Of a stretch of 64,000 nt of DNA, positions 1-6,581 are shown one piece after another (position 1 is the first letter of the stretch; every line of letters starts with the position of its first letter). A program made the position numbers and the translations under genes. Source of the stretch: Polaribacter sp. (lineage in GTDB: Bacteria; Bacteroidota; Bacteroidia; Flavobacteriales; Flavobacteriaceae); assembly GCA_029250685.1 (NCBI GenBank), contig JAQXEU010000028.1:1-64000 (forward strand). The letters run 5' to 3'. The notes beneath the pieces are model-generated. The model was not told where the DNA came from, ran no database searches, and saw only the letters and a list, made by a program, of their open reading frames with translations.

Positions 1-771
1 ATAGAATATTTAAAACAAAAACTTCAGGGAATTGATTTTTTAGGTGTCATAAAATTAACAAAAGATAAGACATCTAATGAGGTTAAATCAATACAATATG
101 AACTTATGAAAAGAATTTATCATAATATTAATATGATAATTCCTAAATCCAAAAATGGATTGTCAATCATGGTTACATCATGTATTAAAGATGAAGGGAA
201 AACATATACTGCCTATAATTTTTCAAATTTCTTAGCAAAAACGGGCAATAAGGTACTTCTTATTGGAACTGATTTAGGAAATCCTGATTTATCAAAATTA
301 TTTGACAATAAAAATACCAAATTAAACGCAAAAGGGCTCACAGATATTATTTATGATAATGAAAATGATTTTAAAGAGCTTTTTGAACAATATAAAATAA
401 ATGAAAATCAACTAGACACTCTTTTTGTTGGAACAAATAATTTAGGGCACAATGTTTTTGAGCATAATAAATTTGATGAAATAATATCTTATTTAAAGGA
501 AAAATATGATTACATAGTTTTTGATACTGCGCCAGTGATGATGATGGTTGATACTTTAAAATTATTAGAAAAATCAGACTTTATTATTCATGTTTTTAGA
601 AAGTATTTCTCATCAAAAAAGTTAGTGAATTTTCTAATAGAATATAATGAAAAATTTAAGCCAAAAAACATAGGCTATGTTATTACTGATGACACCAAAC
701 CGGATAAATTTATTGATAAATACGGATACGGGTATGGGTATGGGTATGGGTATGGATACGGAACCACATAA
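1..771 (+). CDS. Capsule/EPS-type bacterial tyrosine kinase, C-terminal part (5' end outside window)
   Basis: The reading frame is open back to base 1, and the residues before the first ATG (106) match the linker normally found just before the kinase core, so this is a truncated view of a longer Wzz/Wzc-like protein and not a gene starting at 106. Visible are a Walker A-like TSCIKDEGKT, a Walker A' region LLIGTDLGNPDL and a Walker B YDYIVFDTAP. The protein ends in seven Tyr-Gly repeats. Family knowledge: BY-kinases autophosphorylate a C-terminal tyrosine cluster and control polymerisation and export of capsule or exopolysaccharide at the inner membrane. The partner chain-length domain should lie upstream. 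The role is inferred from family, and the assignment is strong. Confidence 0.85.
   Translation: MEYLKQKLQGIDFLGVIKLTKDKTSNEVKSIQYELMKRIYHNINMIIPKSKNGLSIMVTSCIKDEGKTYTAYNFSNFLAKTGNKVLLIGTDLGNPDLSKLFDNKNTKLNAKGLTDIIYDNENDFKELFEQYKINENQLDTLFVGTNNLGHNVFEHNKFDEIISYLKEKYDYIVFDTAPVMMMVDTLKLLEKSDFIIHVFRKYFSSKKLVNFLIEYNEKFKPKNIGYVITDDTKPDKFIDKYGYGYGYGYGYGYGTT
721..762 (+). repeat. Hexanucleotide tandem repeat encoding (Tyr-Gly)7
   Basis: Seven consecutive six-base units of the form TAYGGR (TACGGA, TACGGG, TATGGG x3, TATGGA, TACGGA) end the kinase gene just before ACC ACA TAA. Because the unit is six bases, gain or loss of copies would keep the frame and change only the number of phosphorylatable tyrosines. 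Confidence 0.9.
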
Positions 772-1028
772 ATCAACTCTATTTACTCTAAAACATTGTG
801 CCCTAAATTATTGTCATCTCACACTTCAATGAAGATATTAGAAAACCACTACATCAATCCACTTTTATTAAACGTAGAAGAAGAAAAATTAATGAAGATT
901 AAAATATTTGGATAGTCGAATTTTATCTAACACAAGAGTGTAGCACGTATAACGCAAAAAGGATTATATATTTGTAACTACTTGAAAATGAACCGATAAA
1001 AATATGTGAATTTAGGCAGTAAGGAGTG

Positions 1029-1066
1029 TTATGAGCCCGACGAGCTACTTACTGCTCTATCCCGCG
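1029..1066 (-). pseudogene. 5' half of initiator tRNA-fMet (CAT), truncated in the anticodon stem
   Basis: Read on the minus strand, the 38 bases from 1066 to 1029 are the first half of an initiator tRNA. They contain a CGCGGGA acceptor strand, TA, a GAGC/GCTC D-stem, a TCGGG anticodon 5' stem with the three G's typical of initiators, and the loop CTCATAA with anticodon CAT at 1033-1031. The matching 3' stem should read close to CCCGA, but the sequence becomes CACTC and no T-arm or acceptor 3' strand follows. It is therefore a fragment, not a functional tRNA. CAGTAAG (1017-1023) is an exact inverted repeat of CTTACTG (1048-1054) in the D-loop. Confidence 0.8.
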
Positions 1067-1076
1067 ATTTGGAATG

Positions 1077-1108
1077 CAAAGATACAACGATTTTATTCTT
1101 CTTTGCAA
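1077..1108 (-). promoter_or_regulatory. Bacteroidota-type promoter of the truncated tRNA-fMet
   Basis: On the minus strand there is a TTG at 1108-1106, a 21-base spacer, and TATCTTTG at 1084-1077, matching the -33 TTG / -7 TAnnTTTG pattern. The -7 box ends 10 bases before the first tRNA base (1066), as expected for a tRNA promoter. It appears intact although the tRNA is not. Confidence 0.7.
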
Positions 1109-1195
1109 GAAAAATTAAAGTTTATTTTAAAAAATATTTTAAAATACTCAACTACAATATCCTATCTTTTAAAGGCGCAAAATCAAAAAACAAAC

Positions 1196-1203
1196 TATCT
1201 TTG
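1196..1203 (+). promoter_or_regulatory. -7 element TATCTTTG immediately upstream of era
   Basis: A perfect TAnnTTTG ends only four bases before the era ATG (1208). Transcription should therefore start at or about the start codon, giving a leaderless or nearly leaderless mRNA. No clear -33 TTG lies 17-23 bases upstream. Confidence 0.55.
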
Positions 1204-1207
1204 CAGC

Positions 1208-2089
1208 ATGACACATAAAGCTGGTTTTGTAAATATTATTGGGAACCCTAATGTTGGTAAATCAACATTAATGAATGCTCTTGTTGGCGAGAAATTATCT
1301 ATCATAACTTCTAAAGCACAAACAACAAGACATAGAATTCTAGGAATTGTAAATGATGATGATTATCAGATCATTTTTTCGGATACGCCAGGAATTATTC
1401 AACCTGCATATCAATTACAAGAATCTATGATGGATTTTGTAAAGTCTGCTTTTGAAGATGCTGATGTGTTAATCTATATGGTAGAAATGGGCGAAAAAGA
1501 GTTAAAAAACGAAGCCTTTTTCAATAAAATTATCAATTTAAAAATTCCTGTTATTTTATTGTTGAATAAAATTGACACTTCAAATCAAGATGATGTAGAA
1601 GAGAAACTTGCTTATTGGACAGAAAAAGTACCAAATGCATCTGTCTTTATCATTTCTGCTTTAGCAAAATTTAATATTGATGTTGTTTTAAATAAAATTA
1701 TTGAATGCTTACCAGAAAGCCCAGCATTTTATCCGAAGGACCAATTAACCGATAAACCAGAACGTTTTTTTGTGAATGAAAAGATTAGAGAAAAAATTCT
1801 AATGCATTACAAAAAAGAAATTCCGTATTCTGTAGAAGTAGAAACTGAGGAATTTGTTGAGGAAGAAAAAATTATTAGAATTCGCTCTGTTATTATGGTA
1901 GAACGAGAAACTCAAAAAGGAATTATTATTGGTCATAAAGGAACTGCAATAAAACGTGTTGGAACTGAAGCTAGAAAAGATTTAGAACAATTTTTCGAGA
2001 AAAAGGTTTTTATGGAACTATATGTTAAAGTGAATAAAAATTGGCGAAACGATAAAACGCAATTAAAACGTTTTGGGTATAAAGATTAG
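1208..2089 (+). CDS. era: GTPase Era (ribosome assembly, KH domain)
   Basis: The 293-residue protein has the usual Era length. The P-loop GNPNVGKS is at residues 12-19, the switch TT at 39-40, DTPG at 59-62 and NKID near 120. The C-terminal KH-type RNA-binding region contains GHKGTAIKRVG. Era binds 16S rRNA near its 3' end and assists 30S maturation. ATG 1208 was chosen because the protein then begins as Era homologues do. The longer frame from 1031 would run through the tRNA fragment and promoter. It stands alone on this strand, with its own -7 box directly upstream. Confidence 0.95.
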   Translation: MTHKAGFVNIIGNPNVGKSTLMNALVGEKLSIITSKAQTTRHRILGIVNDDDYQIIFSDTPGIIQPAYQLQESMMDFVKSAFEDADVLIYMVEMGEKELKNEAFFNKIINLKIPVILLLNKIDTSNQDDVEEKLAYWTEKVPNASVFIISALAKFNIDVVLNKIIECLPESPAFYPKDQLTDKPERFFVNEKIREKILMHYKKEIPYSVEVETEEFVEEEKIIRIRSVIMVERETQKGIIIGHKGTAIKRVGTEARKDLEQFFEKKVFMELYVKVNKNWRNDKTQLKRFGYKD

Positions 2090-2090
2090 T

Positions 2091-2591
2091 TTATTTCTCG
2101 ATAATTGAAATCATTAACTCATGTAAATCATTCATTTGTTTATGACCTGTACTTTTACCAATTCTTCCCAAAAAATATAGCAAAATCCATAATAATGGTA
2201 AAAATATAACCATCATTAATGGAAAAATAAACCCTTCATCTAAACTCCAATTTACGTATAACATTACGCTAAAGATCAAAAAAGAAATTCCAACAACAAA
2301 ATGGATAAACATAAACAATGTCCAAACTTGTGGTTTTGGTCCAAATAGCCCTTTTAAAACACCTTTGTTATCTTCCGATTTTTCAATTTCTAAATTCAAT
2401 TGTGGAGACCAGAAATGTTCTTCCTTTTTTGGAACATCAATAATAATATGTCCATCAGAAAAACGAAATGGAAAACTGTTTTCTTTTAATTCGTTTTTAA
2501 ATTTTTCAATTACTTTTTCGTGATTTTCATCCAGGTCAATTGTAAATCTTGGTCTTAAAAAAACTTCACTGCTTGTTGTTTCTTTCATCAT
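2091..2591 (-). CDS. Conserved two-TM membrane protein of unknown function
   Basis: This 166-residue protein has a soluble, charged N-terminal half (about residues 1-85) followed by two hydrophobic segments (about 91-113 and 120-142) and a short basic/acidic tail. I do not recognise a named domain. It lies two bases downstream of the SIMPL-domain gene on the same strand, so the two are probably cotranscribed, and it converges on era with a one-base gap. Two adjacent ATG codons could serve as start (2591 or 2588). No function is assigned. Confidence 0.75.
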   Translation of the reverse strand: MMKETTSSEVFLRPRFTIDLDENHEKVIEKFKNELKENSFPFRFSDGHIIIDVPKKEEHFWSPQLNLEIEKSEDNKGVLKGLFGPKPQVWTLFMFIHFVVGISFLIFSVMLYVNWSLDEGFIFPLMMVIFLPLLWILLYFLGRIGKSTGHKQMNDLHELMISIIEK

Positions 2592-2593
2592 AA

Positions 2594-3325
2594 TTAATCT
2601 GCTTTATAAGTAAGTTTCATTGTAATGGAGGCCGTTTTTAATTTTGAAGCCGTATTAAAAGTTCCACCCCAAGAATACGTTTCTTTAGAGTTCTGACCCG
2701 TAATTTGAAAAATCCCCATTTTGGCAGAAATAAGATTCCCTAATTTTCCACCAGAATTTGAAGCAATATTATCTGCTCTTAATTTTGCATCAGATGTTGC
2801 TTTAGAAATCATTTCTAATTTTAAATCTGCCAATTTAGTATAATAATATCTTGGAGGTTGAGAGTAAAACTCAATTCCTTTATTTAATAGCTCTGTAATT
2901 TTTCTAGATATTTTCTCAACCTTTTCTACATCTTTAGAATCTACTTGCAACGATTGTGTTAAAATATAACCTAAAAACTGTTCACCAATATATTTTCCTT
3001 CGCTGTTGTAATTTCCTTTGGTGTTTTTTCTACTTGCAACGGCTTTAAAAACCAATTCATTCTGCTTAACTCCTTTAGAAAACAAATAATCAGAAATTAT
3101 TTTCTTTGCTTTTTCTAAATTATTGTATGCTGTTTTTAAATTTTTGCTTTCACTATAAAAAGAACCTTCCCAAACAATTAAATCTGAAGTGAAATTTGCG
3201 TTTCCCAATCCTGTAACAGAGATAATTCCATCTGAATTATTCCTATTTATGATAGAGTTTCCTAATAAAAATGCTGCAATTACAATTGCAATTGAAAAAA
3301 TGATGGCTGTTAAATTATTTTTCAT
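2594..3325 (-). CDS. SIMPL (DUF541) domain protein, membrane anchored
   Basis: There is an N-terminal hydrophobic segment (about residues 7-25), then ISVTGLGNANFTSDLIVWEG, the typical opening of SIMPL/DUF541 proteins, and a repeat-like beta/alpha region to the end (243 residues, normal for the family). SIMPL proteins are periplasmic or surface proteins, often of unclear role, some linked to oxidative stress or signalling. It is divergent from der, and first gene of a likely two-gene unit with the 2091 membrane protein. Confidence 0.85.
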   Translation of the reverse strand: MKNNLTAIIFSIAIVIAAFLLGNSIINRNNSDGIISVTGLGNANFTSDLIVWEGSFYSESKNLKTAYNNLEKAKKIISDYLFSKGVKQNELVFKAVASRKNTKGNYNSEGKYIGEQFLGYILTQSLQVDSKDVEKVEKISRKITELLNKGIEFYSQPPRYYYTKLADLKLEMISKATSDAKLRADNIASNSGGKLGNLISAKMGIFQITGQNSKETYSWGGTFNTASKLKTASITMKLTYKAD

Positions 3326-3378
3326 AGTAGTAAGATTTATAACTCTTTAAAATTAAACAAATATCATTCCCTAATTAG

Positions 3379-3386
3379 TATCTTTG
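3379..3386 (+). promoter_or_regulatory. -7 element TATCTTTG upstream of der
   Basis: A perfect TAnnTTTG ends 15 bases before the der ATG at 3402. No convincing -33 TTG is seen. A TTG at 3384 is part of this box and is not the der start. Confidence 0.55.
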
Positions 3387-3401
3387 CAAAAATATTTTTT
3401 G

Positions 3402-4715
3402 ATGAATAATAGTATTGTTGCCATTGTAGGGAGACCAAATGTAGGAAAATCGACTTTATTTAATCGATTGGTTCAACGAAGAGAAGCAATTGTAGATTCT
3501 GTAAGTGGTGTAACTAGAGATAGACACTATGGAAAATCGGATTGGAACGGGAAAGAATTTTCTGTGATTGACACTGGTGGATATGTGGTGGGTTCTGATG
3601 ATATTTTTGAAGATGAAATCCGTAAGCAAGTGCAATTAGCTTTAGACGAAACAGATATTATTGTTTTTGTGGTTGATGTTGAGCAAGGAATTACACCGAT
3701 GGATTCTGAAGTTGCTAAATTGCTTAGAAAAGTAAAAAAACCAATATTTATTGCAGTGAATAAAGTTGACAACGCAATGCGTGATGCGGATGCTGTTGAA
3801 TTTTACAACTTAGGATTAGGAGATTATCATACAATTTCATCAATTAACGGAAGTGGGACTGGAGAATTATTAGATGCTTTAGCGGAAATAATGCCAGAAC
3901 CGGAAGAAGTTGATTTAGAAAAAGAAGAATTACCAAGATTTGCTGTTGTTGGAAGACCAAACGCAGGAAAATCATCCTTTATTAACGCATTAATTGGAGA
4001 AGACAGAAATATTGTAACCGATATCGCTGGAACAACAAGAGATTCTATTGACACAAAATACAATCGTTTTGGATTTGATTTTAATTTGGTTGATACAGCC
4101 GGAATTAGAAAAAAATCAAAAGTAAAAGAAGATTTAGAGTTTTACTCAGTAATGAGAGCTGTTAGAACTATTGAATATTCTGACGTTATTATTTTAATGA
4201 TCGATGCAACTCGTGGTTTTGAAGGTCAAGATCAAAATATTTTTTGGTTGGCAGAAAAGAACAAAAAAGGAGTTGTAATTTTAGTTAATAAATGGGATTT
4301 AGTTGATAAAGAAACGAATACTGTTAGAGATTACGAAGCAGCTATTAGAAAAGAAATTGCACCATTTACTGATGTGCCAATTATCTTTATTTCAGTTTTA
4401 ACAAAGCAACGTATTTTTAAAGCAATAGAATCTGCTGTAACTGTTTTTCAAAATAGAAAGAATAGAATTACTACAAGCAAATTAAACGAAACAATGCTAG
4501 AGATTATTAAAAGTTATCCACCTCCAGCAATTAAAGGAAAGTTTGTGAAAATTAAATATTGCATGCAATTGCCTACACCAACGCCGCAATTTGCATTTTT
4601 TGCGAATTTACCTCAATACGTAAAAGATTCTTACAAAAGATTTTTGGAAAATAAAATGAGAGAGATCTACGATTTTTCTGGTGTTCCTATTATCATCTAT
4701 TTTAGACAAAAGTAA
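3402..4715 (+). CDS. der: GTPase Der (EngA), double-GTPase ribosome assembly factor
   Basis: Two GTPase domains in tandem are visible: GRPNVGKST near the N-terminus with DTGG and NKVD, and GRPNAGKSS near residue 180 with DTAG and NKWD. A C-terminal KH-like domain follows. The length of 437 residues is standard. Der acts in 50S subunit maturation. The frame extends to TTG 3384, but ATG 3402 is preferred because the TTG lies in the -7 box and Der homologues begin right before the first G1 motif. era and der share this neighbourhood but are transcribed separately. Confidence 0.95.
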
Positions 4716-4723
4716 ATTCCTTT

Positions 4724-5686
4724 TTATTTAAAGACAAAAGCAATTATTGAGAGGATAATCCCGCCAAAAAAAACCACATAAGTATATTTTAATATTTTTC
4801 TTTTAAAGTTGATTTGCTGATTCAATACATCTTTGTTTGTTGCTTGTTTAACTTTTAAAGGTCCAGCAATGATAAGTGCTAAAACAGCAGAAATCACATT
4901 AAAAAAGAGTAACACAAGTACTGGAATGAATACTTCTTGGTTTTTTATTGTAGTATTCAATATATAGTAACCAACTAACAACCCAAAAAGCATCAACGAA
5001 TTTACAGCTAGAATAATTGTTGCTTTTATTGTTAATGTGTTATGAGTTTGAAAAGAAGATTCAAAATTGTTTTGATTGGTTTTATCGTTTAAAAGTTTCT
5101 TTTCAATTTTTACCAATTTTGCTAAGTTTTTATCTTTTCCATTTTGCCAATTTTCTTGCGCATGATTCGTGTAAAATCGATGCTCTTTTACAAAGGTGTT
5201 GATGTTCTTCTGAATCCATTCTAATTCAGAATAATCAGAATTAAAAAGCAACTTTAACTCTTGTTTTAATAGCTCATTTTTATCAACAAAGCTAGTTTCA
5301 GCATAGTAAAATGAAACAGCATCTTTCATTATTTTTTCTAAAAGATCTTTTGCTTCTAATTCGGTTTTAGTAACTCTAATCAACCTAACAACATCGTCTA
5401 TAATCGTATTATCGATGTTATATTCTTCTAAAAATGTAGTTGCAATATTTACACTTGCTTCTGTATGGTTTTCTTTTCTATTGATAAATCCAACATTATG
5501 GAACCAGGCTGCAAACAACAAAATATTAGCGTCTACTTCAGAGATTTTTTCGCCCTTAATTAATTCTTTAATAGAATTTACAACTTGCTGAGTTTTTGCC
5601 ACATTATGAAACAAATAATCCTTATTTAACTTTTTAGTTAATAAAGACACTGTGTAATTCTCGGTGTTCAGCAAAAATTTCTTCAT
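4724..5686 (-). CDS. Degenerate HD domain fused to Pycsar-effector-like (PycTM/DUF5706) membrane module
   Basis: The 320 residues form an N-terminal HD-fold region (about 1-180) and a C-terminal membrane module with helices near 223-243, 253-275 and 299-318. The TIKATIILAVNSL stretch and following helices resemble the PycTM/DUF5706 pattern of Pycsar effectors. HD enzymes of this class read HNxxH...HD...D. Here the second His is Lys31 (HNVAK), and the HD doublet is His63-Asn64 (AAWFHNVGF), while His27 and Asp122 remain. Two of four metal ligands are therefore changed, so phosphohydrolase activity is unlikely. No cyclase gene is adjacent. It ends nine bases from der, convergent. The family call is from recalled motifs. 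Confidence 0.7.
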   Translation of the reverse strand: MKKFLLNTENYTVSLLTKKLNKDYLFHNVAKTQQVVNSIKELIKGEKISEVDANILLFAAWFHNVGFINRKENHTEASVNIATTFLEEYNIDNTIIDDVVRLIRVTKTELEAKDLLEKIMKDAVSFYYAETSFVDKNELLKQELKLLFNSDYSELEWIQKNINTFVKEHRFYTNHAQENWQNGKDKNLAKLVKIEKKLLNDKTNQNNFESSFQTHNTLTIKATIILAVNSLMLFGLLVGYYILNTTIKNQEVFIPVLVLLFFNVISAVLALIIAGPLKVKQATNKDVLNQQINFKRKILKYTYVVFFGGIILSIIAFVFK

Positions 5687-5774
5687 AAAAGAATTATTTC
5701 TACTAAGATAAAAATTTGAAATGAAATAGTAACTGCAAGTGTATTACAATTAAAAAATTAGTGTCCTTTTTGGA

Positions 5775-6581
5775 TTACCAACCTCCAGAAGATCCTCCGC
5801 CGCCGAATCCGCCGCCGCCGAATCCACCACCAAAGCCACCGCCACCAAAACTACCTCCTGATGAACCGCCACCAAAGCTTCCGCCACCACCAAAACCTCT
5901 TCCGGCATTGCTTAAAATGATTGCATCTAAAATAGAAAACCCACTTCTTCGTTTTCCACCACCTCGTCCACCTCGGTTATTTTTGTTGGAAAGAATAATG
6001 AATAAAATGATAAAAAAGATAATGGGTATTATTCTGAAAAAACTAGAATCGGTGTTCTTTTTTCGTTTTCTCGTTTCTTTAAATTCCCCTTTTAAGGCTT
6101 TAAAAATTGCATCAGAACCTTTGTCTAACCCAGTATAATAATCGCCTTTTTTAAACTCAGGAGTTATAATATTGACTCTAATATCTGTAGAAATATAGTC
6201 GGTTAATAGGTGCTCTACACCATACCCTGTTTGCAAACTAAGTCTTCTATCATCTTTAGCCACTAAGATAAAAACTCCATTGTCTTTTCCTTTTTGACCA
6301 ATACCCCATTTTTGTGCCCAATTGGCTGCCAAAAACCCAACATCTTCCCCTTCTGTTCTTGAAATAATAGCAATTACTATTTGAGTTGAAGTTGAATCTG
6401 AATAGCGAATTAATTTTTTTTCAAGATTGGTTTTTTGATTTGTAGAGAGTAACCCAATATAATCGTAAACACTGGTTTGTACTTTGGGTAGTTCCGGAAT
6501 TTTATATTGCCCAACAATGGTTTGAACAGCAAAAAAACTGAATAAAACAAGTATTAATTTGAAGCTATTTTTTAAACGCAT
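5775..6581 (-). CDS. Exported TPM-domain (YgcG-like) protein with Gly/Ser-rich tail
   Basis: It has an N-terminal signal sequence (about residues 1-25, ending VGQ), then a TPM domain (about 33-160) with the expected RYSDSTSTQIVIAI and GYGVEHLLTD-like segments. A transmembrane helix near 185-203 follows, then a tail of about 40 residues made almost only of Gly, Ser and Phe. TPM proteins are membrane-associated, and photosynthetic homologues act in photosystem II repair. The bacterial role is not firmly known. It is last in the LemA-TPM-TPM gene set, overlapping the previous gene by one base (shared stop/start). Confidence 0.85.
   Translation of the reverse strand: MRLKNSFKLILVLFSFFAVQTIVGQYKIPELPKVQTSVYDYIGLLSTNQKTNLEKKLIRYSDSTSTQIVIAIISRTEGEDVGFLAANWAQKWGIGQKGKDNGVFILVAKDDRRLSLQTGYGVEHLLTDYISTDIRVNIITPEFKKGDYYTGLDKGSDAIFKALKGEFKETRKRKKNTDSSFFRIIPIIFFIILFIILSNKNNRGGRGGGKRRSGFSILDAIILSNAGRGFGGGGSFGGGSSGGSFGGGGFGGGFGGGGFGGGGSSGGW

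Follow-up and report, generated by a model that had tools for sequence, protein, structure and literature searches.

Near the left end of a 64,000-nt stretch of Polaribacter sp. DNA, which is termed the window here, lies the 5′ half of an initiator tRNA (tRNA-fMet) gene together with its promoter. This half is very probably the chromosomal side of an attachment site, where an element with a tyrosine integrase would have recombined in the initiator tRNA gene linked to era. At the level of sequence, comparison with related genomes establishes the junction, the adjoining integrase, the rebuilt gene of the relatives and the reconstructed empty site. The features concerned are as follows.

1..771, plus strand: C-terminal 256 aa of a tyrosine kinase of the polysaccharide type, truncated at the start of the contig (kinase identity, AAA_31).
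775..915, plus strand: C-terminal remnant of the tyrosine integrase gene intA, with an internal deletion at about 797-804 (match to intA of G093, translation).
916..1027, no strand: element end (y-end), from the integrase stop codon to the tRNA half (similarity at eight other half-tRNA junctions).
1028..1066, minus strand: orphaned 5′ half of the era-linked tRNA-fMet gene, nt 1-39, with a G-to-A change at presumed position 18 (match to G020, nine-locus alignment, intact copies).
1077..1108, minus strand: native tRNA promoter, TTG (1106-1108), N21, TATCTTTG (1077-1084) (direct reading and motif scan).
1208..2089, plus strand: era, a host gene divergent from the tRNA, which marks the native site (MMR_HSR1 and KH_2 domains, synteny with intact fMet).

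An earlier note on this DNA had recognized a truncated tRNA-fMet 5′ half behind an intact promoter on the minus strand, which is confirmed by a motif scan and by the fMet region of the relative G020, matching the half plus 25 upstream nucleotides at 95% over 64 nt (E=2.2e-23). The half had been described as 38 perfect-looking bases whose match stops inside the anticodon stem. It comprises 39 nt, namely the acceptor 5′ strand, the D arm, the 5′ strand of the anticodon stem, the loop CTCATAA and one further stem base; the stem is thus reached, but homology ends one base past the loop, with foreign DNA beyond. Nor is it perfect, since it reads AGTAAGTAGC where all intact relatives compared have two G (AGTAGGTAGC or AGTAGGCAGC), and the changed base presumably corresponds to G18 in tRNA numbering. 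The TTG box at 1106-1108 is taken here to be part of the tRNA promoter. For flavobacteria, the −7 box is given as TAnnTTTG in the available portion of PMC9723704. ARAGORN called no tRNA in the window, and no terminator-like site was detected on either strand of 600-1300. An Rfam scan of 1-6000 returned six hits, all of which fell below their gathering scores and were rejected, intron families being absent. The best of them, RF02896 (Staphylococcus sRNA S774; 29 of 48 bits), overlaps part of the half; this weak match (1047-1137) aligns on the fMet 5′ start, and the 3′ end of the family resembles the start of an initiator tRNA.

The element side of the half consists of about 110 nt followed by the integrase C-terminus (775-915), of which 775-796 and 805-899 match the intA DNA of G093. 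PF00589 was found in intact intA relatives, and in G169 an intact 411-aa integrase with this domain stands beside the half. When 146 genus genomes were searched with the remnant, 11 matched at E<=0.1 and eight of them, the window's own included, at 1.1e-5 or better, while 12 integrase loci, several within the same genomes, came from scanning named genome contigs. The protein search yielded 155 integrase relatives, and three of five inspected among the matches listed measured 411 aa; no sequence relatives were found in the PDB at E<=0.01. An integrase piece of 87% identity was also observed beside a tRNA-Phe gene in another MAG (L137 10001-10913). Locus L136 is labelled Rhodobacteraceae, yet it holds this flavobacterial element and, judged by eye, flavobacterial-type genes, so that mis-binning is possible.

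The kinase (1-771) shares 67-69% identity with kinases of G007, G010 and G014. Its stop codon lies three bases before the integrase remnant, which suggests that the two were joined by deletion, and the kinase may have been element cargo. A link to turnover of a polysaccharide locus, as the earlier note proposed, is possible but weaker, the evidence being one truncated kinase gene (771 bp) at the end of a contig. Different genes adjoin the element where it occurs elsewhere. Two further observations concern this segment: an inverted repeat (88%) is formed by 436-477 and 772-812, and the filler in the integrase deletion equals, with its flanks, 23 bp of the kinase gene in inverted form, as after a template switch.

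The native site could be recognized in relatives. A query of era plus the half found matches in 55 of the 59 genomes searched, own included, and an intact tRNA-Met divergent from era was present at 26 of the 29 relatives' loci fetched (L040-L068), the remaining three being L056, whose contig ends inside the tRNA, L067 and L068. The comparison with related strains suggested earlier brought to light both intact fMet genes at era and occupied sites of the predicted arrangement. Near era in G018, G008 and G027 (L050, L062, L064), two or three whole fMet copies occur in tandem.

The element end joined to an fMet 5′ half was found at nine loci in eight genomes: G000 (the window's own), G136 (two), G141, G071, G169, G171, G172 and G174. 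This recurrence in seven other genomes, with the integrase remnant beside the junction, bears out the integration of an element, which had been offered together with deletion as the cause of the truncation. The element end plus half (916-1045) is 80-97% identical to the eight other half-tRNA junctions, and the halves of G174 and G172 are altered as well. An exact pattern of the truncated half, which misses halves changed within it, was found in five of 166 genus genomes, or in four (five loci) after G112 was dropped as a stem variant of an otherwise whole fMet. At two loci, in G019 and G175, the same element end abuts sequence other than a tRNA half; window 807-1030 is 91% identical to G019 DNA lying 0.4-0.6 kb upstream of era. 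Erosion has affected the integrase end in G023, where era has no half beside it any more, and in G093 the sequence after the open integrase frame is masked, so its junction is unreadable. In G175 (L146, about 10270) the element end retains TTATGAG and adjoins what reads as coding sequence of the T9SS-sorting type; this may be a secondary insertion site. By eye, the ORF abutting the element end in G019 (L112 4067-4700) resembles an ORF beside the far end of G171 (L169 4783-5307), which is weakly DUF4236-like.

Four of these genomes (G000, G136, G071 and G172) carry the half at era, as would be expected if one old insertion had been inherited vertically instead of repeated lateral insertions having taken place. 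However, the half occupies non-era positions in G141, G169, G171 and G174. Moreover, the element end plus half is 95.4% (G136), 94.6% (G172) and 93.1% (G071) identical to the window, against 85.4%, 77.6% and 80.2%, respectively, for era, a pattern that fits lateral spread. Selection on the region bound by the integrase could yield the same pattern, because an element end of this kind could evolve slowly; vertical inheritance is therefore rated as unlikely but still deserving some weight beside lateral spread.

The other end of the element was identified through intact fMet genes standing behind a common upstream region in G023, G096, G136, G093 and G171. These far-end regions show 86-100% identity over 147-230 nt of the G023 sequence, with the promoter TTG-N19/20-TATATTTG in all five genomes, and in G023, G096 and G136 the terminator after the 3′ half is of the type seen in G020's native gene. 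G136 has the native promoter and 5′ half at era, and a native-type 3′ half with terminator lies 33 kb away; joined together, the era side and the distant 3′ side align to the empty site of G020 at 91.2% over 262 columns, whereas alignment of the far-end side by itself starts no earlier than about 19 nt ahead of the tRNA. These alignments point to a far-end promoter and 5′ half borne by the element, and to a 3′ half and terminator of native type. In G171 both element ends occur on one contig, 11.8 kb apart; G171 and G136 display a tRNA fragment at one end and a rebuilt fMet gene at the other in the same orientation, and G171 and, with its eroded end, G023 agree with the arrangement in G136. The contig of G169 terminates within far-end sequence, 12 positions before the tRNA start, which indicates that draft assemblies can stop there.

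The far-end search matched 19 of 166 genomes in 20 rows, six of which had a long match followed by an intact fMet (G023, G096, G136, G139, G093 and G148). The others led to an orphan half (G141) or to no tRNA (two rows of G126, one of G119), gave a 58-nt match with an fMet further downstream (G147), or were short matches before tRNA-Gly genes (nine rows). The far-end fMet of G139 lies 10 kb from era. The y-end was not detected in G139 and G148 despite their far-end-type fMet genes, so that the promoter could predate the element, or the y-end could have been lost.

A deletion or unrelated rearrangement might also have broken the tRNA gene, with the integrase remnant there by coincidence, as a single tRNA half could be left by a deletion and the remnant is itself deleted and fused to the kinase 3′ end. 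This is highly improbable, because the breakpoint falls on the same base in all nine aligned loci and coincides with the anticodon loop, a usual crossover site according to the available part of PMC4383910, and because the 3′ half is present at the other end in G136 and G171.

The assembly of the window's own genome, with 61 contigs and 95.8% completeness, has 30 tRNA matches above the Rfam cut-off, one of which (C60:77090-77162) received no ARAGORN call; ARAGORN named two tRNA-Met(CAT) genes, neither of which is fMet by sequence. A search with the fMet region returned the window half as the sole match in this assembly, with no intact fMet and no second 5′ half, and a search for a separate 3′ half at <=3 mismatches matched only the gene at C52. 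The matching 3′ half and the intact tRNA-fMet for which the earlier note had advised searching are therefore both missing from it. Far-end sequence was not found in the assembly either, and the N-terminal two thirds of the kinase are absent, the only other match being a 26%-identical kinase on C44. These joint absences suggest that sequence to the left of the contig start is missing from the assembly, and the same far end is presumably present in this genome. Intact fMet is missing from the assemblies of five of the eight genomes with orphan halves (G000, G071, G141, G169 and G172); the intact fMet of G174 begins at a contig edge, without the far-end upstream region.

Such a draft, with the junction about 1 kb from a contig start and no intact fMet, invites the suspicion that the contig start was wrongly joined inside a tRNA repeat. 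The identical junction and element end in seven other genomes, two of which have it inside contigs of 0.5 Mb (G136) and 1.1 Mb (G171), make such a chimera exceedingly improbable, and the doubt that stays concerns the kinase side of the join (772-774), which was found in G000 only. A function for the half itself, either as one part of a split tRNA joined in trans or as a regulatory RNA of the tRNA-half kind, is hardly more credible. Its promoter is intact and no other fMet gene is in the assembly, but a separate 3′ half was not found in its own genome, G18 is mutated here, the halves of G174 and G172 are also changed, and a normal fMet gene exists wherever the far end is assembled.

According to the preferred reading of an attachment site, the initiator tRNA gene next to era would be the target of element A, which carries intA, with recombination taking place in the anticodon loop. 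On the era side, the native promoter and 5′ half would stay in place and abut the end of the element that bears the integrase; the native 3′ half and terminator would end up at the element's other end, to which the element would bring its own promoter and 5′ half, thereby rebuilding a whole fMet gene. The crossover in the loop, the takeover by the element promoter and the stranding of the native one are all deduced from the arrangement of the sequences; the element-borne promoter is probably active, and the stranded promoter may be active too, reading antisense into the integrase. The kinase gene had been regarded as the target of such antisense reading, and the gene order does end at the kinase, but the element end and the integrase remnant come first.

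There are also signs of stacking. Two element ends lie 24.6 kb apart in G136, ahead of the intact fMet, and the second copy has a damaged half and adjoins another integrase gene, intB. Upstream of the half in G141, identity to the far-end type is only 74%, and this likeness suggests that a second copy hit an element-borne gene. The intB product is a tyrosine integrase unrelated to that of intA, encoded upstream of fMet copies in G023 and G136, and these copies lack the consensus promoter and have a damaged acceptor strand. The intB loci (L113 844-1884; L128 7428-8440; L133 13490-14531) use the same anticodon-loop core. ARAGORN calls the second fMet copy of G023 (L113 718-791) tRNA-Met, but with AACAGG as its acceptor 5′ strand, and in the absence of a consensus promoter upstream, it is judged non-functional. 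The cargo is variable, including a TonB receptor, a resolvase, a DNA methylase and a weakly ParB-like protein in G171, a ParB-methylase protein, a second methylase and another integrase gene in G172, arginine-decarboxylase, arginase-family and deoxyhypusine-synthase genes in G169, and a sugar-uptake set, read by eye, in G023.

Tentatively, these islands may be held by an excision ratchet that needs no toxin, in which the decayed native half keeps the island in place, with additional islands stacking on the copy that the element carries. If transcription of the sole working initiator tRNA gene came from the element, nothing would keep the orphaned native half from decaying. Precise excision should then rebuild a defective initiator tRNA, as expected from the G18 change in the window half, so that the island would be locked in. 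In addition, the orphaned tRNA promoter might hold the integrase down via antisense transcription. Whatever the merit of this idea, the locus allows occupied sites to be compared cleanly with empty ones for a mobile element that appears to furnish an essential tRNA gene with its promoter and front half. The only functional-looking fMet would depend on the element promoter in the assembly of G171 and in G023, whose genome is a single contig of 98% completeness. Such an arrangement would also explain the presence of a half-tRNA gene next to a variable island of marine flavobacteria, and the liability of draft assemblies to break there.

Taken together, the junction, the rebuilt gene and the empty site identify a tRNA island of the 5′-fragment type, a known minority. 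In the accessible text of the Islander study, 3760 of 3919 islands have a 3′ fragment and 159 a 5′ fragment (PMC4383910), in agreement with the earlier statement that the 5′ side is less often the one left behind. An integrase lies at the attachment site (a remnant in the window, intact in G169), and the site is empty in the relative G020. The 5′ part is displaced and the gene is rebuilt behind what the sequence arrangement and promoter consensus mark as an element-borne promoter; fragment and rebuilt gene stand at opposite ends in G136 and G171, though not within the window's own assembly. No place among temperate phages or plasmids is suggested, since no record among 50,697 from phages and 72,556 from plasmids matched intA at E<=1e-5. 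An attP form was not found; the two pattern hits in viral contigs had neither era nor an integrase, a tRNA half or either end of the element in their vicinity and were discarded as chance.

The 5′-fragment islands of Islander, as described in the same accessible text, likewise combine a tyrosine integrase, crossover in the anticodon loop, a 5′ fragment with a rebuilt gene, and tandem arrays (PMC4383910); in contrast with them, the target here is the initiator tRNA, and the rebuilt copy in G023 and G171 is the only functional-looking one. The available part of a review states that rebuilt bacterial tRNA genes keep their original promoter with very few exceptions, and that archaeal integrases of the pTN3-like group act on the 5′ half of tRNA genes (PMC8371274). 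Elements of the pTN3 type resemble the present one in having attB in the tRNA 5′ half and a tRNA rebuilt from an element-borne promoter, but they are archaeal and their integrase gene is split on integration, whereas here it is whole and beside the site (PMC8371274, same part). SXT at prfC and IMEVchUSA3 at dusA, as presented in the accessible part of PMC8409611, also insert in the 5′ part of a gene and supply a new promoter and start, although their targets are protein genes and not an initiator tRNA. Tycheposons are alike by description, with aquatic bacterial hosts, a tRNA-Met border, a tyrosine recombinase and variable cargo (available part of PMC10872708). A literature search aimed at the marine flavobacterial family, which partly covered abstract openings, found no published description of it. 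As far as these searches reach, the family is a new member of a kind of island that was already known.
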